From Variovorax sp. PAMC 28711 (GTDB lineage: Bacteria; Pseudomonadota; Gammaproteobacteria; Burkholderiales; Burkholderiaceae_C), in NCBI RefSeq assembly GCF_001577265.1, contig NZ_CP014517.1:2285001-2349000 (forward strand): a stretch of 64,000 nt of DNA, read 5' to 3'. The position numbers were made by a program, and so were the translations under genes. The notes beneath the pieces were generated by a model. That model saw only the letters and a list, made by a program, of their open reading frames with translations, searched no databases and was not told where the DNA came from. Below are positions 11,492 through 44,428 of the stretch, piece after piece (position 1 is the first letter of the stretch; every line of letters starts with the position of its first letter).

Positions 11492-14400
11492 ATGAACGCC
11501 CCCCTGCCCGAGCACATTCGCAAGGCCCTCGAAACCGTCACGCTCGACGACAAATATTCGCTCGACTACGGACGCGCCTTCATGAGCGGCGTGCAGGCCC
11601 TCGTGAAGCTGCCCATGCTGCAGCGCCTGCGCGACCAGCAGGCCGGCAAGAACACCGCCGGCTTCATCAGCGGCTACCGTGGCTCGCCGCTCGGCGGCTA
11701 CGACCAGGCGCTGTGGAAGGCGAGCAAGTACCTCAAGGCGCAGAACATCGTGTTCCAGCCGGGCGTCAACGAAGAGCTGGCGGCCACCGCGCTGTGGGGC
11801 ACGCAACAACTGGGCTTCTCGCCCCAGGGCACCAACAAGTTCGACGGCGTCTTCGGCATCTGGTACGGCAAGGGCCCGGGCGTGGACCGCTGCTCGGACG
11901 TGTTCAAGCACGCGAACATGGCGGGCACCACCGAGTTCGGCGGCGTGATCGCCGTCGCGGGCGATGACCACATCAGCAAGAGCAGCACGGCGGCACACCA
12001 GAGCGACCACATCTTCAAGGCCTGCGGCACGCCGGTGTTCTTCCCGACCAACGTGCAGGAGATCCTCGACCTGGGCATCCACGCCTTCGCGATGAGCCGC
12101 TTCTCGGGCGTGTGGTCGGGCATGAAGACGATCCAGGAGATCGTCGAATCCAGCGCCACCGCGATGATCGACCCCGAGCGCGTCGAGATCGTCATCCCCA
12201 CCGATTTCCAGATGCCGCCCGGCGGCCTGCACATCCGCTGGCCCGACCACGCGCTGGAGCAGGAAGCGCGCTTGATGCACTACAAGTGGTACGCCGCGCT
12301 GGCCTACATCCGCGCCAACCGGCTGAACCACAACACCATCGAAGGCCCGAACGATCGCTTCGGCATCATGGCCAGCGGCAAGGCCTACAACGACACGCGC
12401 CAGGCCTTGATGGACCTCGGCCTGGACGACGCGACCTGCCGCCAGCTCGGCATCCGCCTGCACAAGGTCGGGGTGGTGTGGCCGCTCGAGGCGCAGCTCA
12501 CGCGCGAATTTGCCACCGGCCTGCAAGAGATTCTGGTCGTCGAAGAAAAGCGTCAGGTCATCGAGTACCAGCTGAAGGAAGAGCTCTACAACTGGCGCGC
12601 CGACGTGCGGCCCAACGTGCTGGGCAAGTTCAACGAACTCGACGCCGGCGATTTCTCGGGCGGCGAATGGTCGATGTCGAACCCGACCGCCAACACGCTG
12701 CTGCGCGCCAATGCCGACCTGAACCCGGCGCTGATCGCCAAGGCGATCGCCCAGCGCCTGAAGAAGCTCGGCATCCTCGACCAGGCCGGCAGCGACATGC
12801 GCGCCCGCATCGATGCGCAGATGGCGATCCTCGACGCGAAAGAGCGCTCGATGGACGTCCTGAAAGTCGGCGGCGTGCAGGGCGCCGACCGCCAGCCCTG
12901 GTTCTGCTCGGGCTGCCCTCACAACACCAGCACGGTGGTGCCCGAAGGCTCCCGCGCGATGGGCGGCATCGGCTGCCATTTCATGGCGACCTGGATGGAC
13001 CGCAGCACCATCGGCTTCACGCAAATGGGCGGCGAGGGCGTGCCGTGGGTCGGCCAGCAGCCTTTCACGACCGACCAGCACATCTTCGCGAACCTGGGCG
13101 ACGGCACCTACTTCCACAGCGGGCTGCTGGCGATCCGCCAGAGCATCGCGGCCGGCGTGAACATCACTTACAAGATCCTCTACAACGACGCGGTCGCCAT
13201 GACCGGCGGCCAGCAGGTCGGCGAGCGGCCCGAGGGGCATTCGGTGCTGCAGATCGCCGAGAGTCTGCATGCCGAAGGCGCCAAGAAGGTCATCGTCGTC
13301 ACCGACGAGCCCGAGAAGTACGACGGCGTGAAGGTGCCCGGTGACAACGTGGCGATTCGGCATCGCGACGACCTGGACGAAATCCAGCGCGAGTTCCGCG
13401 AAATCACCGGCACGACCGCGATCATCTACGACCAGACCTGCGCCACCGAAAAGCGCCGCCGCCGCAAGCGCGGCACGGCCGTCGATCCGGCGGTGCGCGT
13501 GGTCATCAACGAACTCGTGTGCGAAGGCTGCGGCGACTGCAGCGTGCAGAGCAACTGCCTGTCGGTCGAGCCGCTCGAAACCGAATTCGGCCGCAAGCGC
13601 ACGATCAACCAGAGCACCTGCAACAAGGACACGAGCTGCCTCAAGGGCTTCTGCCCGAGCTTCGTCACCGTCGAAGGCGGCGCGCTCAAGAAGAAGTCGA
13701 AGAACAAGGCCAATTCGCCGTTCGATACGTCCGTCTGGGGCGCGATGCCCGAGCCGGTCGTGCCGCAACTGGCACGCGACCAGGTCTGGGGCATCGTCGT
13801 CGCGGGTGTCGGCGGCACGGGTGTCATCACGATCGGGCAGTTGCTCGGCATGGCCGCACACATCGAAGGCAAGGGCATCGTCACGCAGGACGCAGCTGGC
13901 CTGGCGCAGAAGGGCGGCGCCACCTGGAGCCACGCGCTCATCGGCGAATCGCAGGACGCGATCCGCACGACGCGCGTCGGCACCGCGGCAGCCGACCTGA
14001 TCCTGGCCGCCGACCCGCTGGTAGCGGTCAACGCCGAAACGCTGGCGCGCATGCGTGAAGGCCGCACGCACGTCGCGCTCAACACGCACAGCACGCCGAC
14101 CGCAGCGTTCGTGCGCAACGCCAACTGGGTCAACCCGCAGGACGACTGCGCGAACGAGATCGCGCGCGCCGTCGGCGTCGATGCGCTCGGCACTTTCGAC
14201 GCCGACGCGTTCGCGGTGGCGCTGATGGGCGACAGCCTGTATGCCAACCCGATGCTGCTCGGCTACGCGTGGCAGCGCGGGTGGGTGCCACTGGAATTCG
14301 CGTCGCTGATGCGTGCGATCGACCTCAACAACGTCGCGATCGAAAACAACAAGACGGCCTTCGAATGGGGCCGCCGCGCGGCGCACGACCTGGCCGCGGT

Positions 14401-34124: not shown

Positions 34125-34127
34125 GCG

Positions 34128-34144
34128 TCGGGCGAGCCGCCCGA
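34128..34144 (+). terminator. Weak hairpin after purC
   Basis: Perfect stem TCGGGCG / CGCCCGA around AGC, four bases after the purC stop. It is followed by AAA, not T, so on this strand it is a poor terminator. Confidence 0.35.
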
Positions 34145-34189
34145 AAAGGTGAATAAGTCACAAGCCGGCCGGCAATAGTCACGCTTTTC

Positions 34190-34213
34190 GAAGTGTGCAT
34201 TTGTTCACACTTC
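34190..34213. promoter_or_regulatory. CRP-type binding site before the LuxR-type gene
   Basis: 24-base interrupted palindrome GAAGTGTG, eight bases, CACACTTC. Its centre reads TGTGC-ATTTGT-TCACA, matching TGTGA-N6-TCACA at 9 of 10 positions. The site ends 28 bases before the ATG at 34242. A CRP-type regulator with the matching recognition residues is encoded 650 bases downstream. The position between promoter and Shine-Dalgarno sequence could suit repression as well as activation. Confidence 0.62.
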
Positions 34214-34241
34214 TCGCATCCCCAAAGGACAGGAGCGAGAG

Positions 34242-34862
34242 ATGAACCCATCGACGGCGGACCTTTCGATGCAGCCCGGCATGCTGGCCCGGGTGCTCGA
34301 CGAAATCGACCATGGCCTGCTGGTGCTCGACCTCGCTGGCCGCATCCTGCACGCCAACCATCCGGCGCGCCACGCGCTGTCGTCGGGCCACGCGATGCGC
34401 AATGTCGACGGTGTGCTGGCGTGCACCGGCGCAGCGGGTCAGCGCGCGTTGCGTCAGGCCCTCAAAGACGCCGAGCGCGGCTGCCGCAGCATCGTCGAAC
34501 TGGCGCACGCGAGCGATCCGCTGTCACTCGCTTTCGTGCCGCTCGATGCGGCGGACGGCGGGCCGGTCGACACGGTGCTGGTCATGTGCAGCCGTCGCCA
34601 CGGCTGCGAGAGCCTCACGATGCAGATGTTCGCGCGATCCAAGGGGCTCACGCGCTCCGAGCAGAACGTGCTGGCCCAGCTGTGCGCCGGCCAGCGTGCC
34701 GACGAGATCGCCTGCGTGCAGGGCGTGCGCCTGTCGACCGTGCGCACCCACATCAAGAACGTGCGGCAGAAAACCGGCAGCACCAGCATCCGCGAGATCG
34801 TGCACCGCGTCTCGCGCATGCCGCAGGTGGTGTCGGCGCTGCGCCTTGTCGCTCACGAGTAA
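34242..34862 (+). CDS. LuxR-type regulator with PAS-like N-terminus
   Basis: 206-aa transcription regulator. The N-terminal about 110 residues (VLDEIDHGLLVLDLAGRIL, HANHPARHALSSG) look like a PAS-type sensing fold; there is no receiver Asp pocket, so it is not a response regulator. The C-terminal LuxR helix-turn-helix spans about 135-187 (LTRSEQNVLAQLCAGQ, STVRTHIKNVRQKTG). Strong AGGAG six bases upstream of the ATG. The ligand is unknown. It starts a regulatory group with the CRP-type gene (33-base gap), after which the haem-enzyme genes follow. Confidence 0.85.
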   Translation: MNPSTADLSMQPGMLARVLDEIDHGLLVLDLAGRILHANHPARHALSSGHAMRNVDGVLACTGAAGQRALRQALKDAERGCRSIVELAHASDPLSLAFVPLDAADGGPVDTVLVMCSRRHGCESLTMQMFARSKGLTRSEQNVLAQLCAGQRADEIACVQGVRLSTVRTHIKNVRQKTGSTSIREIVHRVSRMPQVVSALRLVAHE

Positions 34863-34883
34863 CGGAGCCGCCGGGGCGGGCCG

Positions 34884-34889
34884 TATAGT
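34884..34889 (+). promoter_or_regulatory. -10-like TATAGT before the CRP-type gene
   Basis: TATAGT, six bases GGCCGG, then the ATG at 34896. There is no Shine-Dalgarno sequence. Only 21 bases separate it from the previous stop, so the gene may have its own nearly leaderless transcript as well as read-through. Confidence 0.5.
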
Positions 34890-34895
34890 GGCCGG

Positions 34896-35546
34896 ATGCC
34901 TCCTGCCGCGCTGCGCGCCGACCTCACCGACGCCCTGCCGCCGTCGCTCCTGCGGCTGGCCGAGTGCGGCACGCAACGCCACTTTCGCACCCACAGCCTG
35001 CTGATCCAGGAAGGCGACCTCGGCGATTCGATCTATATCGTCCTGACGGGCCGGCTGCGCGCGTTCGTGTCCGATGCGCGCGGCCGCGAAGTGACGCTTG
35101 GCGTGCACGGACCGGGCGAATACGTCGGCGAGATGTCGCTCGACGGCGGCCTGCGCTCGGCGAGCGTGCAAGCGCTGGAGCCCACCGTCTGTGCGGTCGT
35201 CACGCGCGCGAGCGTGCTGGGCCACATCGCCGCCGACCCGGAATTTTCGCTGGGGCTGATCACGCGCCTGATCCGCCGCGCCCGGCTCGCGACCGAGAGT
35301 GCGCGCAGCATGGCGCTGCTCGACGTCTACAGCCGCCTCAAACGTGTGCTCGAAGACCGGGCGCAGCCGGCGGTCGACGGCACCCGCCGCATCGCCGAGC
35401 GCCTGACGCACCAGGCGCTGGCCGGCGAGATCGGCTCGTCGCGCGAAATGGTCAGCCGCCTGCTCAAGGACCTCGAGAAGGGCGGCTATGTCGCCGTCGA
35501 GCAGCGCTGCATCGTGCTGCTGCGGGCGCTTCCCGCCCGCTGGTAG
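34896..35546 (+). CDS. CRP/FNR-family regulator of CRP type
   Basis: 216-aa cyclic-nucleotide-type regulator. The N-terminal cNMP-binding barrel has the phosphate-binding cassette GEMSLDGGLRSASV (Gly78, Glu79, Arg87, Ser88), as in cAMP-binding CRP proteins, and no FNR-type cysteine cluster. The C-helix includes ATESARSMALLDVYSRL. The winged helix has LAGEIGSSREMVSRLLKDLEKGG: Arg183, Glu184 and Arg188 match the three base-contacting residues of E. coli CRP, predicting a TGTGA half-site. A matching site lies upstream of the preceding gene. It precedes the cyclase-domain protein by 81 bases, suggesting linked signalling. Confidence 0.88.
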   Translation: MPPAALRADLTDALPPSLLRLAECGTQRHFRTHSLLIQEGDLGDSIYIVLTGRLRAFVSDARGREVTLGVHGPGEYVGEMSLDGGLRSASVQALEPTVCAVVTRASVLGHIAADPEFSLGLITRLIRRARLATESARSMALLDVYSRLKRVLEDRAQPAVDGTRRIAERLTHQALAGEIGSSREMVSRLLKDLEKGGYVAVEQRCIVLLRALPARW

Positions 35547-35584
35547 CGCGGCGGATCCTCTTTTTGGTGGATAGACAAGACGGT

Positions 35585-35602
35585 CCGACTCGCTAGAGTC
35601 GG
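35585..35602. promoter_or_regulatory. Perfect inverted repeat before the cyclase-AAA gene
   Basis: CCGACTC / GAGTCGG, seven-base arms around GCTA, ending 25 bases before the ATG at 35628. It is unlike the CRP-type site. It may be an operator or a hairpin in the transcript leader. Confidence 0.4.
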
Positions 35603-35627
35603 CGTGCCCGAAAACACAGAGGTGCGG

Positions 35628-38627
35628 ATGAACGCTTGTGCAAATTGCGGAACGCCACGCGAGGCCAGTCACCGCTTTTGCTGGCAGTGCGGCGCATTGC
35701 TGGATGCGCAGCGCGAGCTGAAACAGGTCACCGTCCTGCTCGCTGACCTCTGCGATTCCACCGCCCAGGTCGTGCAGACCGGGGCCGAGGCCGGGCAGGC
35801 CTACCTCGACACCGCCTACCGCCTCATGTCGGAGGCCGTCGAGGCGTACGGCGGCACCCGCATGCAATGGCGCGGCGACGAATTGCTGGCGCTCTTCGGC
35901 GCCCCCCTCGCGCAAGAGGACCACGCGCTGCGCGCCTGCCTGGCCGCCAGCGCGATGCTCGAGGCGATGCAAGCCCACACCACCGCCGAGTCGCCCATGC
36001 GGGTGCGCATCGGAATCGATTCGGGCGAGGTGATCGCCGGTCCGGGCGGGGCCGACATGTCGACGCCCTACCGCGTCGACGGGCCGCCGATTCACCTCGC
36101 GTCGCGGCTGGAGCAACTTGCATCGCCGGGCACGGCGCATGTCAGCGGCAACACCATGCAGCTGGTCGGCGACCAGATCGAGACGCGGCTGCTGGGCAAG
36201 CGCGAGCTTCGCGGCTTCAGCGCGCCGGTCGACGTGCACGAGATCACCGTCGGCCAGCAGGGATCGGCGGCGGCTCCGCTGGCACGTCGGCGCTATCTCG
36301 GCCCGCTGGTCGGCCGCACGGAGGCGATCGACGACCTGAAGGCGATCGCCGAGCGGGTGCGCGCCGGCGCGTTCTGCGCGGTCGGCCTGCGCGGCGAGGC
36401 CGGCATCGGGAAGTCGCGCCTGATCGCCGAGTTGTCGACCCACCTGCGTGCCAACGGATTCGCGGTGGCGCCCGTCACCGCGCGCGGCTATGCGAGCCAC
36501 GTGCCGTACGGGCTCGTCGCCGACCTGGCTCGGGTGCTGCTCGGATTGGGTGGCGACCCCTCGGCCGAGCCGGCCAACCTGCACAGCGCCGCCCTCACCG
36601 ACCTGCTCGATGCCGGCGACGCCGGCGACGCCTGGCGCGCGCTCTCGCCGCTGCAACGCAGCGAGCGCATCGCCAACACCTTCGCCTGGCTGGTGCGCGA
36701 ACGGACCCGGAGCGCGCCGCTGGTGCTTGCGATCGACGACGTGTTTCTGGCCGATCGCGGCAGCCTGCGCCTGCTGGAAATGCTGGCGCGCCGGCTGCAG
36801 TCGCAGCCGCTGCTGGTGCTCATGAGTTACCGGCAGGACTACGTGCACCGCTGGAGCGACGCGCCGTGGTTCGCGGAGCACTGGATCGGTCCGCTGCCTT
36901 CCGAGCGCATGGTCGAACTCGCACAGGCGCTGCTGGGCGGCGACGAATCGCTGCACGCCGTTCGCACCGCGTTGCTCGACCGCGCCGACGGCAATCCGTT
37001 CTTCCTCGAACAGATGGTGATGACACTGGTCGACGGCGGCAGTCTGCTCGGCCTGCCGGGCGGTTACCGCGCCACGTCGGGCGCATCGCCGCTCGGCGTG
37101 CCGGCGTCGATCATGGCGGTCATCGGCGCGCGCGTGGACCGCTTGCCGGCCGACACCAAGGCCAGCCTGGAGGCCGCGGCCATCGTGGGCGAACCGCTGC
37201 TCTCGGGCGTGGTGGCCGCCATGCGCAACATCGACGAGGCCGAAGCGGAAAGCCATCTGCGGCAGGCGATGTCGGGCGGGCTGATCACCGCGTCGGCCGG
37301 TGCCGGCGCTTCGGGTGCGTATGCGTTTCGCCACGGGCTGGTGCAGGAGGCGGTGGCCGCGACGCTGACCCGAGCGCGTCGCAGCCAGCTGCACCGCGCC
37401 GCCTTCGACGCCTTGCGTTTGCGCGGCGGCGACCCGCCTTCCGAAAACCCGGCCGTGCTCGCGCACCATGCCTACAACGGCGAGCAGTGGCTGTCGGCCG
37501 CCGAATACGCGCAGCGCGCGATGACGCGGTCGATTGCGCGCTCCGACAACCGCGACGCACTGCGCGTTTTTTCGCTCGGCCTCGAAGCGGCCCGGCGCGT
37601 GGAACCCGAAGCGGCAATGCTGACCTGCGAGCTTGCCCTGCGCATGGAGGCGCTGGGCGCGCAGATGGCGGTCGGGTTGTTCGATGCCATCGTCACCAAT
37701 CTCGAACGGGCCGAGCGCATCACGCGCACGCTCGGCGACACGCGTCGCCAGGCGGCGGTGGCGTTGCAACTCGCCGTCGTGCTGTGGACGCGCGGCAGCT
37801 ATCGGCAAGGCCTTGAAGCCGCCGCCAACGCCGGCGCGGTGGCATTGGCGGCCGGCAGCCGCAGCCTGCAGATGGCCGCGATGCAGGCCCGCATGATGCT
37901 CAACCACGGGCTCGGCCGCTATGCCGTGGCGGGCGCCGATGCCGCCGAGGTCGAGCGCGAATTCGCGGTCGAACTGCGGGGTCGTCGCCTGATGGCAGGC
38001 TGGGCCGTCATCGCGTCGATCAACGTCAAGACCTTTCTGGCCGACACGCTGATCTGGAAGGGCGAGTTCGTCGCCGCGCAGGCCGCGTGCGATGCCGCCT
38101 ACCGCGAGCTGGCCGCCGAAGACCACGCCTTCTCGCGCGTGCTGGTCGACTTCGTGCAGGCCGAACTGATGCTCGCCCAGCACCGCGCCGGCGACGCCGT
38201 CACGCTGCTGCGGTCGGCGCTCGAACTGTGCCGCGTGCACGAGCTGTCGAACATGCAGCCGGCCATCGTGGCGTACCTCGGCGGTGCGATGGCGCGCAGC
38301 GGCCAGGCGCTGCAGGCCCTGGCGCTGCTCGAGCCGGCCATCGCCGCGAAGATCTCGCTGTCGGGCGGGCGCTACAACGAGTTCTACTTTCCGTTCAACC
38401 TCGCCATCGCGCTGCAGACGGCCGGCCGTGCCGAAGAGGCCATCGTCGCGGCGCGGACGGCCTGCGAAGCCGCCAGCGCGCTCGAACAGCGCGGCCACGA
38501 GGCGCGCGCCCTGCAACTGCTCGCCGGCATCGAAGGCGAAGCAGGCCGCGCGCACGACGCGGCGCTGCACACGCAGCAGGCCCAGGCAGCTGCGCACGAC
38601 TGCGGCATGGCGCGCCTTCATGGTTGA
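35628..38627 (+). CDS. Cyclase-like domain / AAA ATPase / TPR signalling protein
   Basis: 999-aa multidomain protein. Residues 4-21 form a zinc ribbon (Cys4, Cys7, Cys18, Cys21). A class III nucleotide cyclase-like domain follows (about 34-207): both metal Asp positions remain (Asp40 in LLADL, Asp84 in RGDELLALFG) and the transition-state Arg160, but the catalytic Asn is His156 and the base-selecting Lys is Gln80, so activity is doubtful. Residues about 225-600 are an AAA/STAND ATPase with Walker A GEAGIGKS at 256-263 and Walker B LVLAIDDVFLAD. The rest is helical TPR-like repeats. The following P450 gene overlaps its end by 8 bases. Confidence 0.82.
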   Translation: MNACANCGTPREASHRFCWQCGALLDAQRELKQVTVLLADLCDSTAQVVQTGAEAGQAYLDTAYRLMSEAVEAYGGTRMQWRGDELLALFGAPLAQEDHALRACLAASAMLEAMQAHTTAESPMRVRIGIDSGEVIAGPGGADMSTPYRVDGPPIHLASRLEQLASPGTAHVSGNTMQLVGDQIETRLLGKRELRGFSAPVDVHEITVGQQGSAAAPLARRRYLGPLVGRTEAIDDLKAIAERVRAGAFCAVGLRGEAGIGKSRLIAELSTHLRANGFAVAPVTARGYASHVPYGLVADLARVLLGLGGDPSAEPANLHSAALTDLLDAGDAGDAWRALSPLQRSERIANTFAWLVRERTRSAPLVLAIDDVFLADRGSLRLLEMLARRLQSQPLLVLMSYRQDYVHRWSDAPWFAEHWIGPLPSERMVELAQALLGGDESLHAVRTALLDRADGNPFFLEQMVMTLVDGGSLLGLPGGYRATSGASPLGVPASIMAVIGARVDRLPADTKASLEAAAIVGEPLLSGVVAAMRNIDEAEAESHLRQAMSGGLITASAGAGASGAYAFRHGLVQEAVAATLTRARRSQLHRAAFDALRLRGGDPPSENPAVLAHHAYNGEQWLSAAEYAQRAMTRSIARSDNRDALRVFSLGLEAARRVEPEAAMLTCELALRMEALGAQMAVGLFDAIVTNLERAERITRTLGDTRRQAAVALQLAVVLWTRGSYRQGLEAAANAGAVALAAGSRSLQMAAMQARMMLNHGLGRYAVAGADAAEVEREFAVELRGRRLMAGWAVIASINVKTFLADTLIWKGEFVAAQAACDAAYRELAAEDHAFSRVLVDFVQAELMLAQHRAGDAVTLLRSALELCRVHELSNMQPAIVAYLGGAMARSGQALQALALLEPAIAAKISLSGGRYNEFYFPFNLAIALQTAGRAEEAIVAARTACEAASALEQRGHEARALQLLAGIEGEAGRAHDAALHTQQAQAAAHDCGMARLHG

Positions 38628-39849
38628 GGGTGCGTTGGCCCGTTTCGGTCGGTGGGCGGCTTACGAGGCCGTCAGCGCAGCGATTCACCAGCCGCGGGCC
38701 CTGCGCGCGCTCGCAACCTTCATCCGGAACCGTCCGGCGATGCGCAGCCGGCTGCACATCGTGGCCGCGCGCGACGACGTGGCCGGCGTGTTCCAGCGGC
38801 CACTGGCCTTTTCCAATTCGGCGCAGCGGCCGAACCTGGTGGCGGGCGAGTTCGCGATCGGCATGGCGTCCGGACCGCGGCACGCGTGCGAGCGCGCGCT
38901 GCTCCTGCGCCAGTTGCCGCCGCCCGACGATTTCGCGATGCGCTCGGCAGCCGAAAGCCGGCGCCTCGTCCAGGCGCTGCGCGCCGGGCCGGCGCGGCGC
39001 TTCGACCTCATCGGCGACTACATGGCGCCGATCGCGTGGCAGGCGATGGGCGGGGCGTTCGGCGCGGCCCTGCCGTCGTTGCCGGCGGGCGATCCGCTGT
39101 TCGTGCACCTGCGCAACATCGGCGCGCACCTGATCGTCGGCGGGGTGGCGACCGAGGCGGTGCAGCGCCGCGCCCGGGAAAGCGCCGCCGAACTCACGGC
39201 GTGGACGCACGCGCACCTGCCCGCCTTGCAGGCCGCGTGGGGCCTGCAAGGCGCAACGCACCGCGACGCGGTGGCGCGCAACGCCGTCGGCATGATGTGG
39301 GTCGGTCATCCGGCCACGGTGCAGAGCGGCGCGCTGCTGATGCAGGAGTTGCTGGTGCGGCCGAAGGTGTTGCGCGCGCTCGCCGACGCCGTCGGGCAGT
39401 GCACCGACCCCTGGCGCGATGCGCCGCTGCGCGATCGCCTCGGGCAGCATGTGCTCGAACTGCTGCGCTTCCGGCCGCCGTTTCCGATCCTGCAACGCGA
39501 GGTGCCGCGCGACGTGCGCTACGGCGCGGATGGGGCGGCGCGCGCCCCGGCCGGCGTGCCGCTGACGGTGCTGACCATCGGCGCACTGTTCGATCCCGCG
39601 GCCCATGCCGGATCGCCGCCCGACACCTACGACCCTGACCGCGTCTTCGTGCACCCGCACGACCGGCTCATGATTTTCGGCGGCGGCCGCCGGCACTGCA
39701 TCGCGGGCGAGCATGTCGTCGAAATGCTGGTGAGCGCCTTGATCGGGCTGCTCCAGTTGCCCGGCGTGACATGGGCCGACCCGTGGTGGCGGCGCCTCTG
39801 CTACGACGGGCCGAGCATCGCGTCGGCCCGGCTGGCGTTCCGGGACTAG
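38620..39849 (+). CDS. Cytochrome P450 (haem monooxygenase or related)
   Basis: 409-aa soluble P450-like protein. The haem-binding loop is FGGGRRHCIAG with the proximal Cys360, and the K-helix ExxR is Glu280-Arg283 (ELLRFRPP). The I-helix segment VGHPATV (228-234) keeps the Gly and Thr233, but the usual acidic residue before Thr is Ala, so proton delivery may differ. No membrane anchor, ferredoxin or reductase domain is attached or nearby. The ATG overlaps the ATPase gene by 8 bases and the membrane-protein gene follows 9 bases after the stop. Substrate unknown. Confidence 0.83.
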   Translation: MVEGALARFGRWAAYEAVSAAIHQPRALRALATFIRNRPAMRSRLHIVAARDDVAGVFQRPLAFSNSAQRPNLVAGEFAIGMASGPRHACERALLLRQLPPPDDFAMRSAAESRRLVQALRAGPARRFDLIGDYMAPIAWQAMGGAFGAALPSLPAGDPLFVHLRNIGAHLIVGGVATEAVQRRARESAAELTAWTHAHLPALQAAWGLQGATHRDAVARNAVGMMWVGHPATVQSGALLMQELLVRPKVLRALADAVGQCTDPWRDAPLRDRLGQHVLELLRFRPPFPILQREVPRDVRYGADGAARAPAGVPLTVLTIGALFDPAAHAGSPPDTYDPDRVFVHPHDRLMIFGGGRRHCIAGEHVVEMLVSALIGLLQLPGVTWADPWWRRLCYDGPSIASARLAFRD

Positions 39850-39858
39850 GGCCGCGCG

Positions 39859-41601
39859 ATGGCACGCGAGCAGATGATGTGCTTCATCACGCCGGGCGTG
39901 CCCGAGGTGTCGTCGAGCGTGCAGCGCCGCATCGACCGCATGTGCCGCGCCATCGGCCGCATCCATTTCGCGACGCTCGCGCTGTTGCCCGCGGTGCCGG
40001 ACCGGCCCGATGCCCCGGCGTCGCTGTTGTTCGAAGTCGTCGTCGACGAAGGCGTGCCGACGCCCGAGCTGGTCGGGCTGATGCTGCTGCACGGCTTCGG
40101 CGTGCTGTGGCGGCTCTACGGCGCGCACTGGCCGGGACCGCGTGGCGCCTCGACGCATTCGAAGCGGGACTGGTTGCACGCCTTTCTCGCGCAGCATGCG
40201 AACGCAGCGGCCTGCGGCTTCGTCGGCAACCGCGACCGCGACGTGGCGCAGGTCTGCGGCGAGAACGCCTTCTTTCGCGAGGCCGGCGCCGCCTTTCGCA
40301 GCCTGCCGCCCGACCGCGTGCCGGACTGCGCTGCGCTCGGGGACGAGATGACGGCCTGGGCGCGTGAGGCCGGCGGCGCGTGGACGGCCGAGCTGCCGCG
40401 GCGCTCGTTCTGGCGGCACGGCAACCGGCCCGATGGCGTGCGGATCGCGCTGCTGTCGGTCCGGCTGGTCGTGCCGTTGCTCGTGCTGCTGGTTCTGCTC
40501 ATGGGGCTCGGCGCGGTCGCGCTGGCGTCGGTGCAGTGGTGGAGCGGTGTCGGCTTCTCGGCATCGGGCGGGGCTGCGTCCGGCGACCACCGGCTGCCCG
40601 CGTGCCTGGGTGCACTCACCGCGATCGGCGGCCTCGCGGTGCTCGCCATCGGCCTGTCCGCCGCGTTCTTGCTGCTGCTGTGCGCCGCATCCACCTTGCG
40701 CGGCCCGCCGTTCTTTCCGATCGTCGCGGCGGTGCTGGTCGGCGCGGTGCTGTTGGCGGCGACTGTGGCGCTGACTGCGTGGATGTTCGCCGTCATGCGC
40801 GGCGCCGCCTGCGGTCTTCCGCCTTGGAACGCCGTGGCTTCACCCAACTTGCGGACTGTCGTCGTCTTGGCTGCAGGCGCGGCGTGCGTCGTCGGCGCGG
40901 GGCTCCAGTGGGGGCCGGGTGCGATCAAGCGAGTGGCCGCCGCGCTCGCCGAACGCATCGCGAAAGCCGACCGCCCGGTGGCGCTGCCCGACGTGCCGCT
41001 CCACCGCGTGCATCCGAGCCTGCAGGCGTGCGAGGCGGCGACCGCGCTGCGCACGGGCCACATGATCAGCCTCACCGACATCCGCGGCAAGGCCGCGTTG
41101 CGCCGCGTGCGCTTCTGGCTCTGGCTCATCAACCTGCTGGGCGAGCTCGTCTTCACGGAAGGGCGGTTGGGCCATGCCGGCGGCATCAAGTTCGGCCATT
41201 GGCACGTGATCGACGGTGGCCGACGGCTACTGTTCTGCAGCAACTTCGATGGCGGCTTCGGCGGCTACCTCGACGGCTTCATCCGCGGTGCGTCGCAGGG
41301 CGTCAACCTGGTCTGGCGCAACACCGAGCTGCGGCCCCGCAACGCGGCGCGTGACGACCAGCCGGGCGTCGTGACGCCGCGCAGTTTCCCGCCGACGCGC
41401 CTGCAGATGTTTTGCGGCTGCAAGTGCGAGCAGGCGTTCAAGTCCTATGCGCGCGACAGCATGGTGCCGCACCTCCATCGCTTCGAGGCGTACTGCCTGT
41501 CGAACGACGACATCGTGCGCGCGACCCGGTTGCGCGTGGCGCTGCAGGGCCGGCGCAGCGCCGTCCACGACGACCAGATTGCGAGGGCGCTGGAATCATG
41601 A
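39859..41601 (+). CDS. Four-helix membrane protein between P450 and DyP genes
   Basis: 580-aa protein of unknown function with four membrane segments (about 202-226, 248-277, 284-312 and 331-350). It has two soluble parts: residues 1-195 and 360-580. Both contain a similar segment: RIHFATLALL with ASLLFEVVVDEG at about 34-65, and GIKFGHWHVID with RRLLFCSNFDGG at about 442-466, so the soluble parts may be duplicated ferredoxin-like folds. A Cys cluster MFCGCKCEQ is near 517-524. No catalytic motif is recognised. Its gene is closely coupled to the P450 and DyP genes, so a scaffold or membrane role for the two haem enzymes is plausible. Confidence 0.75.
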   Translation: MAREQMMCFITPGVPEVSSSVQRRIDRMCRAIGRIHFATLALLPAVPDRPDAPASLLFEVVVDEGVPTPELVGLMLLHGFGVLWRLYGAHWPGPRGASTHSKRDWLHAFLAQHANAAACGFVGNRDRDVAQVCGENAFFREAGAAFRSLPPDRVPDCAALGDEMTAWAREAGGAWTAELPRRSFWRHGNRPDGVRIALLSVRLVVPLLVLLVLLMGLGAVALASVQWWSGVGFSASGGAASGDHRLPACLGALTAIGGLAVLAIGLSAAFLLLLCAASTLRGPPFFPIVAAVLVGAVLLAATVALTAWMFAVMRGAACGLPPWNAVASPNLRTVVVLAAGAACVVGAGLQWGPGAIKRVAAALAERIAKADRPVALPDVPLHRVHPSLQACEAATALRTGHMISLTDIRGKAALRRVRFWLWLINLLGELVFTEGRLGHAGGIKFGHWHVIDGGRRLLFCSNFDGGFGGYLDGFIRGASQGVNLVWRNTELRPRNAARDDQPGVVTPRSFPPTRLQMFCGCKCEQAFKSYARDSMVPHLHRFEAYCLSNDDIVRATRLRVALQGRRSAVHDDQIARALES

Positions 41602-43052
41602 GCGACACCCTGTCCGGGCTCGAAGAAGCCTTCGACGACATCCAGGCCCTCGTGGGCACCGGCTTCACGCGGCTGCGTCGCGGCCACTACCTGCTGCTGC
41701 AGGTCGACGATGCGGCGCGGGTCCGCTGCTGGCTCGCCGGCCTCCTCGCGCAAGGCCTGGTGCACGCGCTGGACGCGGTGCGCCGGCCGCATGTCGCGGG
41801 CCAGGCGGCGGCACCCGCGGAAGGGCAGAAAACGCGGCTGACCGAATCGGTGACGGTCGCCTTCAGCCATGCCGGCCTGTCCGCGCTCGGGCTTGCCGAC
41901 GCCGAGGCGAATCCTTTCCCCAGCGCGTTTCGCGGCGGCATGGCGGAGCCGGTGCGCCGCGAGCTGCTGGATGGCGATGCGGTATCGCCGTGGCGATGGG
42001 GCGATGTCGACACCGAAGCGGTGCACTTGCTGGTCGCGCACTTCTGGGCCGACGAGGCCACGCCGTCGCGCCATCTCGATCCGGCGTTGCTGGCGGATTG
42101 GGGCTTGCGGGCGCACGTGGTGGCGACCTGTCCGGCCTCCATCGATCCGCCGACGCAGCCGGAACCCGGATCGCGCGAGCCCTTCGGCTTTCGCGACGGG
42201 TTGAGCCAGCCGGTGCCCGAGGGCATCGCCTGGTCGCAGGCCGAAATCCGCGCCCGTCGGCAGGCCGGCAAGGCGCTGTTCGACGACCGGCGCGTCGCAC
42301 TCGGCGAGTTCGTGCTCGGCCATGCCAACGAATACCGGGAGGCTGCGTACTGCCCGGGCCTGGCCTGGGCCTCGGCCCCGTCGCGGCCGTTCGCGCGCTT
42401 CGGCCGCAACGGCAGCTACATGGCGGTGCGCCAGATCGCGCAGCACGTTGACGTCCTCCGGGCCTTCGAGGCGACTTGCCCGGTGCCCGACATTGCCGAA
42501 CGGATGATGGGCCGGCGCCGGGACGGTCGCTCGCTGGCGGCGCTCGGTGGCAGCCAGACGGGGTTGGACGGCTTTCGCTACCTGCAGGACGACGCCGACG
42601 GTTTCGGTTGCCCGCGCGGCGCGCATGTGCGGCGTGCCAACCCGCGCGATGCGCTGTCCGGCTCGCCGCAGGAAGGCGTCGCGAGCGCCCGGCTGCATCG
42701 CCTGTTGCGGCGCGGGCGCGTGTACGCCGAAGCGGGCGCCACCGAAAGCACCTGCGAGATCGGACAAGGGCAGGGGCTGATGTTCATCGCACTCAATGCC
42801 GACTTGGACCGGCAGTTCGAGTTCATTCAGCGCAGCTGGATCGGCGGACCGCGCTTCGGCGGCCTGCATGACGAAGAGGATCCGATCCTCGGGACGGCGC
42901 CCGGCCGCGGCTTCACGGTGCAGGGCTTGCCGGTCGGCCTGCGGATCGGCGGTCTGCCGCGCTTCACCACTGTCGTCGGCGGCGGCTACTTCTTTCTGCC
43001 CGGTCTGGCGGCGCTGGCCTTCATTGCCGCGGGACCGCCCTCCTCAGCGTGA
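41598..43052 (+). CDS. DyP-type haem peroxidase
   Basis: 484-aa dye-decolorising peroxidase. The defining GxxDG motif is intact as GFRDG (197-201), with distal Asp200. The proximal haem ligand is likely His343 in CPRGAHVRRANPRDAL, and a distal Arg is available in ARLHRLLRRGRVY (Arg365 or Arg368). The start overlaps the membrane-protein stop by four bases (ATGA). There is no signal peptide and no encapsulin-targeting tail I recognise. It ends the P450-membrane protein-DyP group and runs 9 bases into the convergent META-domain gene. Substrates are unknown; peroxide-driven oxidation of a lipid or aromatic compound is possible. Confidence 0.87.
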   Translation: MSDTLSGLEEAFDDIQALVGTGFTRLRRGHYLLLQVDDAARVRCWLAGLLAQGLVHALDAVRRPHVAGQAAAPAEGQKTRLTESVTVAFSHAGLSALGLADAEANPFPSAFRGGMAEPVRRELLDGDAVSPWRWGDVDTEAVHLLVAHFWADEATPSRHLDPALLADWGLRAHVVATCPASIDPPTQPEPGSREPFGFRDGLSQPVPEGIAWSQAEIRARRQAGKALFDDRRVALGEFVLGHANEYREAAYCPGLAWASAPSRPFARFGRNGSYMAVRQIAQHVDVLRAFEATCPVPDIAERMMGRRRDGRSLAALGGSQTGLDGFRYLQDDADGFGCPRGAHVRRANPRDALSGSPQEGVASARLHRLLRRGRVYAEAGATESTCEIGQGQGLMFIALNADLDRQFEFIQRSWIGGPRFGGLHDEEDPILGTAPGRGFTVQGLPVGLRIGGLPRFTTVVGGGYFFLPGLAALAFIAAGPPSSA

Positions 43053-43499
43053 GGGCGCGCTGCTCAGCACGATGACCGTGCGGCCGCTGGCATCGAGCAG
43101 GTTCATCCGGCCCGGCCCCGCCAGCCGGTAGGACGCCGTGGTCTGCAGTGCCTGGACGAACTGCGCCTCGATGTCGCCGCGGGCCGGGTCGGCGCACGCC
43201 ATGCGGGTGGACGCGAGCTGGCCGATGCGCAGCGCGCTGCCGGTGCGCGTGAAGGTGCCCGAGATGCGGTTGCATCCGCCCGCGCCGCTGACGCGTCCGC
43301 TGCTGCGGTCGAACGCCACCTGCGCATCGCGCTGCGGCTCGCCGCCGGGTGCGACCGGCTGGTCGTTCAAGCGCGTGAGCCACCACACCGGCCCCTCAAT
43401 CGGTTCGTCGAGGCTGATGCCGCTGCCGCAGGCGGTGATGCCCAGCGCGAAGGTGGCGGCGAGCAGGAAGCGGGAGAACGGCAGAAAGTGCATGCGCAT
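43044..43499 (-). CDS. META-domain lipoprotein
   Basis: 151-aa predicted outer-membrane lipoprotein with a META (HslJ-like) domain. The signal peptide [24 protein letters not shown] has lipobox Cys24. The META domain spans about 35-148 ([47 protein letters not shown]). A start at the third residue (also Met) is equally possible. Its end overlaps the DyP gene end by 9 bases on the other strand. The gene for CnoX is upstream on the same strand after 8 bases. Envelope stress is a common theme for this domain. Confidence 0.83.
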
Positions 43500-43507
43500 G
43501 GCGAACC

Positions 43508-44428
43508 TCAGCTCAGGACGACGCTGCTCAGGCGGCGGCGGTAGGTGGCCACCGTCGGATCGTCCGGCGGGATCTGGCCGTCGGCGACCTTCACTTTCGG
43601 CGGCTCGATGATGTCCAGGATGGCGATGTAAGTCTTGCGCGCCAGGTCGTCGCTCCAGGCCTTGTCGCGCATCAGGATGTCGAGCAGTTCGTCCATCGCC
43701 TCGGTCCAGCGCTGCTCGGCCATCAGCACCTGCGCGCGGCCGAAGCGGGCGTCGAAGTCGCGTTTGTTCGCGGCGATCTTCCCCTCGAACTCGGCGGCCT
43801 GGCGCAGCTCGCCGGCCGGCGGCGCCGCGAAATCGATGGCGTTCATCCAGCGCTGGAGGGCGTCGAAGCGGCGCACCAGCGTGGTTTGGGTGATCACCGG
43901 CGCGAACACGACCTTGGCCTCATCGGTGCGGCCTTCCTGCAGCAGCAGCTTCACGCAGTCGAAGCGGGCGTCGTCATTGGCCGGATCGGTCGCGACGGCG
44001 TGCTGGAGCTTTTCGAGCGCGCCCAGGGTGTCGCCCTCGGCCAGCGCCTCGTGTGCAGCTTCTTCTTCGGCTGCAGCCTCGAGTTGTTCGGCCGCCGGCA
44101 CGTGCTTGTCGAGGAACGTGCGGATCTCGGCCGCCGGGATCGCACCGACGAAACCATCGACCGGCTGGCCGTCCTTGAACATCACGCAGAACGGGATGCT
44201 GCGCACGCCGAACATCTGGCTGAGCTGCTGCGAAATCTGCGGCACCTTGTCGGCGTCGAGCTTGGCGAGCGTGAAGCGGCCGGCGTACTCGGTTTCGAGG
44301 TTTTCGAGCACCGGACCGAGCTGTTTGCAGGGGCCGCACCATTCGGCCCAGATGTCGAGCAGCACGGGCGTGGTGAGCGAGCCGTCGACCAGTTCGGACT
44401 GAAAGTTTTCGAGAGTGATGTCGATCAT
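43508..44428 (-). CDS. cnoX: Thioredoxin-TPR chaperone (CnoX/YbbN-like)
   Basis: 306-aa cytoplasmic thioredoxin-domain protein with TPR-like helices. The thioredoxin fold (about 1-110) has an active-site WCGPC (Cys31, Cys34) and the cis-Pro segment [12 protein letters not shown]; the remainder (about 120-305) is helical ([40 protein letters not shown]). This matches the CnoX/YbbN family of chaperone-redox proteins protecting substrates from hypochlorous stress. The start I use gives [13 protein letters not shown]. It is divergent from purE across 48 bases. Confidence 0.87.

Follow-up and report, generated by a model that had tools for sequence, protein, structure and literature searches.

A conserved four-gene unit for a cyclase-like ATPase, a cytochrome P450, a membrane protein and a DyP-type peroxidase in Variovorax sp. 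PAMC 28711

The genome of Variovorax sp. PAMC 28711, a single contig of 4.3 Mb, contains four adjacent, closely spaced genes that are inherited together as one unit and keep their order. They encode a class III cyclase-like/AAA_16 protein (gene 1, 35628-38627; 999 amino acids (aa) from its ATG), a cytochrome P450 (gene 2, 38620-39849; 409 aa), a membrane protein (MP, gene 3, 39859-41601; 580 aa) and a DyP-type peroxidase (gene 4, 41598-43052; 484 aa). Coordinates refer to the window, the whole 64,000-nucleotide stretch analysed (positions 2285001-2349000 of the genome). All four genes lie on the plus strand, as the last of six that run in one direction at 34242-43052. The junctions read from the sequence, namely an 8-base overlap between the cyclase and P450 genes, a 9-base gap between the P450 and MP genes and a 4-base overlap (ATGA) between the MP and DyP genes, agree exactly with the preliminary description of this DNA, as does the six-gene layout. 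Tentatively, we favour the explanation that the region 35628-43052 encodes one co-inherited, signal-gated haem oxidation system, which would work at the cytoplasmic membrane and use peroxide; its substrate would most likely be a lipid-derived or aromatic compound. A literature search, mostly of open-access texts with few subscription papers, returned no title or abstract describing a DyP and P450 module like this one.

Conservation and inheritance of the unit

An alignment of MP was scanned against named bacterial and archaeal genomes, which gave 26 loci, and gene order in these was established by tblastn with the window proteins. In 23 of the 26 loci the genes for the cyclase-AAA protein, P450, MP and DyP share a strand and follow each other as in the window, including L095 and L107, where the cyclase gene starts at the contig end. 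In L106 and L110 only MP and DyP are visible, the remainder being cut by the contig end, and L117, from a Pyrinomonadaceae metagenome-assembled genome (MAG), has P450, MP and DyP without the cyclase protein. The hosts are Variovorax, Hydrogenophaga and MAGs of Betaproteobacteria, Burkholderiales and Hyphomicrobiales, while 14 loci are named Bradyrhizobium. Genomes G842 and G437, from other genera, have the same gene order, the cyclase gene of G437 running to the end of the fetched stretch. With gene starts picked by script, the cyclase and P450 genes overlap by 4 or 8 bases in 19/23 loci, and the MP and DyP genes by exactly 4 bases in 19/26.

Within the genus, P450, full-length MP and the cyclase orthologue occur in an identical set of 7 of the 101 Variovorax genomes. 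The P450 search gave eight matches at E 1e-3, of which a partial one (G075, E 1.4e-6) was set aside. The cyclase protein was matched in 13 genomes at E 1e-60; the seven with E < 1e-100 are the P450-bearing ones, and the other six are paralogues of 29-33% identity. MP was matched in 32 genomes at E 1e-5, with seven long matches in the P450-bearing genomes; the others are short and for the most part lie in frames near 440 aa. Beyond the genus, family-level and phylum-level profile searches, in which 3 or 4 candidates per genome were scored against 8 in the genus cyclase search, yielded at least 12/399 (E 1e-30, short relatives included) and at least 2/398 (E 1e-40), respectively. The earlier proposal that P450, MP and DyP belong together is thus borne out by the shared genomes and gene order, and the cyclase-AAA protein, by the same counts, belongs to the unit as well. 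Relatives with the genes scattered were looked for and none was found.

The four proteins diverge in parallel: their pairwise distances over the window and 22 loci correlate with r of 0.88-0.97, kinship being ignored. In Variovorax J22R187, all four proteins are nearest to copies from Bradyrhizobium or Hyphomicrobiales. Because of these nearest relatives and the correlated divergence, we read the unit as having moved between lineages as a whole. Neighbours outside the unit were compared in 18 loci, incompletely, as the simple gene caller missed some genes, P450 itself in 5/18 loci. Besides the four proteins, the clusters occurring in at least three loci were Bradyrhizobium synteny, two genes that in Variovorax belong to the purC-purE site, and a minus-strand frame lying over the module. 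Of ten Bradyrhizobium loci, nine have the same genes around the unit, the exception being L118 (B. jicamae); an ALAD gene downstream of the unit in one Bradyrhizobium locus was read as part of this synteny.

The haem enzymes and their probable membrane partner

The P450 gives a weak Pfam match (2.2e-5); residue and structure checks nevertheless back the family name, the haem-thiolate Cys loop and the ExxR motif being present. The acid-alcohol pair of the I helix is absent: 24 of 25 P450s, those of the window and 23 module loci, have His-Pro-Ala/Val there, His-Pro-Ala in the window, and only L117 has Asp-Thr. In the wider family (n=110) the residue before Pro is His in 108, Gln in one and Cys in one, never Arg, and Pro itself is kept in 109/110. 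As judged from these alignments, this is a P450 family without the oxygen-activating acid-alcohol pair and with a near-invariant His-Pro-Ala/Val in its place, which is new here. In CYP152 the pair is replaced by Arg-Pro, a change tied to the use of H2O2 (PMC5818669). The unit P450 resembles CYP152 enzymes (P450 BSbeta, SPalpha, OleT) in having a basic residue followed by Pro at this site, but differs from them in the motif, His-Pro-Ala/Val instead of Arg-Pro, and in a register shifted by one. None of the best 60 of the 341 PDB matches of the P450 was a CYP152 enzyme. No CYP152 gene is known to lie next to one for a DyP. The family may represent a second natural way, besides the CYP152 Arg-Pro, of losing the acid-alcohol pair, and is relevant to peroxide-driven P450 catalysis. 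Since the pair is missing, the P450 may run by a peroxide or substrate-hydroperoxide route without a redox partner, none being encoded in the unit.

The DyP assignment likewise depends on residues and solved relatives, because the Dyp_perox_N model, which had no match anywhere in the host genome, is unusable as a marker. The C-terminal Pfam model matches weakly (1.7e-6), and the NCBIfam family Dyp_perox_fam (TIGR01413) reaches 83.5 bits (1.6e-23) against a cut-off of 100.5. However, the Asp of GxxDG, the proximal His and the distal Arg are present in 27/27 sequences, and the closest solved chain, PDB 8re3 (E 1.4e-29), aligns at the catalytic residues, so that residue and structure checks back the family name. 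We take 8re2 and 8re3 to be DrDyP of Deinococcus radiodurans. The unit DyP has these three catalytic residues in common with DrDyP, but is a distant branch, paired with an MP-type membrane protein in the loci checked. No DyP, Cld or CYP152 chain was among the matches listed in the comparisons with solved structures, and such chains may be present further down. With its catalytic Asp, His and Arg intact, the enzyme should react with peroxide.

An O2-dependent P450 served by a housekeeping ferredoxin, with DyP oxidising what the P450 releases (an aromatic compound, say, or one derived from lignin) and the cyclase-AAA protein acting only as a regulator, would make this a conventional catabolic or biosynthetic module. 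We consider that doubtful, as no redox partner is encoded among the six genes and the acid-alcohol pair is absent across the P450 family. Moreover, DyP has no export signal by eye (no signal-peptide program was used), which would make it unsuited to attack on polymers.

Another DyP cluster occurs in other Variovorax genomes (L052, L057, L058 and L059, at about 3-17 kb in each locus). It consists of genes for a large lipoprotein, a GMC oxidoreductase, a 143-aa protein, an MP-like protein of 431-442 aa and a DyP; L057 and L058 have one more gene, whose product of about 408 aa matches no Pfam model and is presumably catalase-like. Family searches were made on the L058 copy, where the lipoprotein gave a weak match to cytochrome c peroxidase, below the cut-off. 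As in the unit, the MP-like protein of L058 (431 aa) is encoded directly upstream of DyP; in contrast to the unit, a GMC oxidoreductase and the 408-aa protein stand in place of P450 and the cyclase protein, and the MP-like protein is shorter.

MP itself matches no Pfam family at E 0.1, ABM (PF03992) included, and no NCBIfam family; its profile against PDB sequences found only unrelated membrane proteins (best E 0.14). The AlphaFold2 model has four long helices within residues 192-370, between soluble domains at 1-178 and 386-580. These soluble ends are predicted to come together in the manner of tandem ABM/SchA polyketide proteins, a feature new here, and would form one ABM-like double barrel on four helices. 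From the ABM/SchA-like proteins WhiE-ORFI (9lmn) and Abx(+)O (9ltx), MP differs in having no Pfam or meaningful PDB sequence match and in the four predicted membrane helices that stand between its halves. The substrates of known barrels of this type are hydrophobic polyketides. A Foldseek list for MP, mainly AcrB-type chains at E > 0.01, was set aside for the fold claim. His36 was dropped as a haem ligand, being Gln in seven Bradyrhizobium copies, and His401, present in 27/27 sequences, is a candidate. In a Burkholderiales MAG (L107:4084-7443) the MP frame has 1119 aa, with a big insert between two conserved ends.

A DyP gene directly follows the MP-type gene, or is fused to it, in 17/17 loci checked, likewise a new finding. 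The fusion is found in G058, where MP-like and DyP sequences share one long reading frame (L053:8663-11983 and 11647-12921, both minus strand) after a divergent P450. This constant adjacency, with one fusion, supports a physical link between MP and DyP, and MP probably docks the peroxidase. MP, whose family is absent from Pfam, thereby gains a role that can be tested, that of a partner of DyP.

According to our preferred explanation, then, the barrel of MP on its four helices would dock DyP at the membrane and offer both haem enzymes a hydrophobic substrate. A more detailed version, to which we give limited credence, is a haem machine in which the ATPase, its cyclase converted into a sensor, would gate the membrane complex, and the split barrel would pass a hydrophobic substrate or hydroperoxide between DyP and a P450 that does not use O2. 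If this is true, the DyP branch acquires fixed partners and a role; as its genetic partners are fixed, that role is testable by deletion of one unit in Variovorax or Bradyrhizobium. What DyPs act on in the cell is an open question raised in PMC10820274.

Several points weigh against the peroxide-using membrane system. The P450 of L117, which also stands beside MP and DyP, has the canonical Asp-Thr. In the HMMER alignment it is Pro and Ala, not His and Pro, that fall on the acid and alcohol sites, a shift of one from the CYP152 motif. O2 and NAD(P)H are still used by some P450s that lack the usual alcohol residue. Foldseek alone gave no significant match for MP (best E 0.015), the MP-DyP pairing count covers 17 of a larger number of MP-like loci, and the genes flanking the unit vary by lineage and point to no single substrate. 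Finally, DrDyP is inactive at physiological pH (PMC10820274).

In Variovorax J22R193, a patatin-like phospholipase gene (L063:4367-6031, minus strand) lies beside the unit, between the crp and cyclase genes. This gene, found at a single locus, hints at a lipid substrate. It would also suit an oxylipin-type pathway, in which a membrane lipid would be cut or oxidised, DyP would reduce or form a lipid hydroperoxide and P450 would rearrange it, MP being the lipid platform. Allene oxide synthase-like P450s rearrange lipid hydroperoxides, and a P450 without the acid-alcohol pair, as well as a predicted membrane-anchored MP with a barrel of the hydrophobic-ligand kind, would suit such a pathway. However, patatin occurs at one locus only and no lipoxygenase or cyclooxygenase was found among the 30 neighbour proteins scanned, so we regard this pathway as unlikely.

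The cyclase-like ATPase and its possible part in signal control

Gene 1 encodes a protein matching Guanylate_cyc (6.2e-18) and AAA_16 (2.9e-22), followed by a long C-terminal region. Zinc-ribbon models gave only matches below their cut-offs, and no TPR model of Pfam matched; the TPR label came from the preliminary description, and repeats were not searched for separately. In its cyclase domain, positions were read in the register of alignments to 6fht and 3r5g, and we take them to be the metal-binding Asps, the purine-selecting Lys and the transition-state Asn. Among 24 rows, both Asps are present in 22/22 readable sequences, while at the Lys site 20 of the 22 readable residues are Gln and the other two Arg, and the Asn site is His in 23/23. 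Walker A is found in 24/24 cyclase-AAA proteins. The alignments show a cyclase-like domain without the usual purine-selecting residues, which is new here. The closest known proteins are TOMM kinase/cyclase fusions (TIGR03903) and other cyclase-AAA proteins. TIGR03903 matches the 1007-aa frame from an upstream GTG with 5.8e-54; the score of 183 bits is far below the cut-off of 706. The alignment spans 33-1005 and takes in the cyclase domain, the ATPase and the C-terminal region; however, the match begins at model position 279, the kinase part being absent, and the cyclase pocket of the unit is degenerate. Given this pocket, the domain would more likely sense nucleotides or have a regulatory role than work as an ordinary adenylate cyclase. 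In the preferred explanation the protein, as a STAND-like ATPase, would sense a ligand or nucleotide and control the complex.

The two genes upstream of the unit encode a LuxR-type regulator (34242-34862) with PAS-like and GerE helix-turn-helix (HTH) domains (GerE 8.6e-8; PAS_4 0.0013, below the Pfam cut-off) and a CRP-type regulator (34896-35546; cNMP_binding 2e-21, HTH_Crp_2 3.7e-10). A second-messenger loop could connect them with gene 1: the cyclase-like domain would make an unusual cyclic nucleotide, and the adjacent CRP would read it and switch the unit. The conserved metal-binding Asps are consistent with such a loop, as is the CRP gene beside all six purC-site copies (window included) and in L107, where the CRP adjoining the module is 55% identical to that of the window. 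Nevertheless, the loop is improbable: the purine-selecting Lys and transition-state Asn are replaced wherever readable, CRP occurs without the unit in 5/13 module-free purC-purE intervals, and tblastn found no CRP in the fetched flanks of the Bradyrhizobium copies.

The two regulators are not integral to the unit: luxR-crp is present in 6/6 module-bearing and 5/13 module-free fetched purC-purE intervals (luxR without the module in G013, G024, G027, G070 and G082), and in J22R187, where the unit is located elsewhere, luxR-crp still occupies the purC site. LuxR and CRP thus form a separable pair, possibly of optional local regulators, and they would have that role in the favoured system. In G437, a stretch 40% identical to the window LuxR-type regulator (L132:11417-11968) adjoins DyP; it has no Pfam match at E 1e-4, and hints that a LuxR-type regulator may be linked more widely to the unit.

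The purC-purE interval

Six copies of the unit, among them that of the window, lie between luxR-crp and a minus-strand lipoprotein gene, which is followed by a thioredoxin-like gene and purE; the V. soli copy at this site was assembled from two contigs. In the window the two minus-strand genes occupy 43044-43499 and 43508-44428. The first presumably encodes a META/HslJ-like lipoprotein; the second, in which WCGPC was seen, is thioredoxin-like. The block had been described as separating purC from purE within a conserved cluster. It does lie between them, but so do the two minus-strand genes, which separate purC from purE in 13/13 fetched block-free intervals as well, and the spacing is far from constant. 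The two pur genes share a contig in 55 of the 61 genomes searched (four have them on different contigs, one lacks a purE match and one lacks both), at distances of 1.45-13.7 kb with a median of 3.0 kb: 19 do not exceed 2 kb, 29 fall within 2-5 kb and seven are longer than 5 kb. Among these seven, G000, G076 and G081 contain the module, G024, G013 and G082 other cargo, and G014 no module. The other cargo, placed after crp (L062:4091-9066, L064:3564-6932, L065:3894-10631), includes a cyclase-TPR protein, PAP2 phosphatases, subtilases and a solute-binding protein. Given such cargo and the variable length, the block is one of several alternative contents of this interval, and insertion between purC and purE seems to have recurred.

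A site of variable length and content, the patchy spread over 7/101 genus genomes and the different genomic setting in B. jicamae (L118) would also fit a stress or phage defence island, with the STAND-like ATPase as sensor and the haem enzymes as damaging effectors. Pycsar cyclases were among the PADLOC matches of the cyclase domain (best 1.3e-9), but such PycC matches are expected of any class III cyclase-like domain. P450, MP and DyP had no PADLOC match at E 0.01, the matches of the other three proteins being to cyclase, cNMP-domain and HTH models only, and the neighbours are the same in 9/10 Bradyrhizobium loci compared. A defence role is accordingly very improbable.

The window contains no tRNA gene. 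Its G+C content is 0.69-0.73 at 34-44 kb, against 0.65-0.70 to the left; the right flank at 46-52 kb is equally rich (0.70-0.71), and composition therefore leaves an integrated element undecided. One short tandem repeat is present in the window, inside the cyclase gene.

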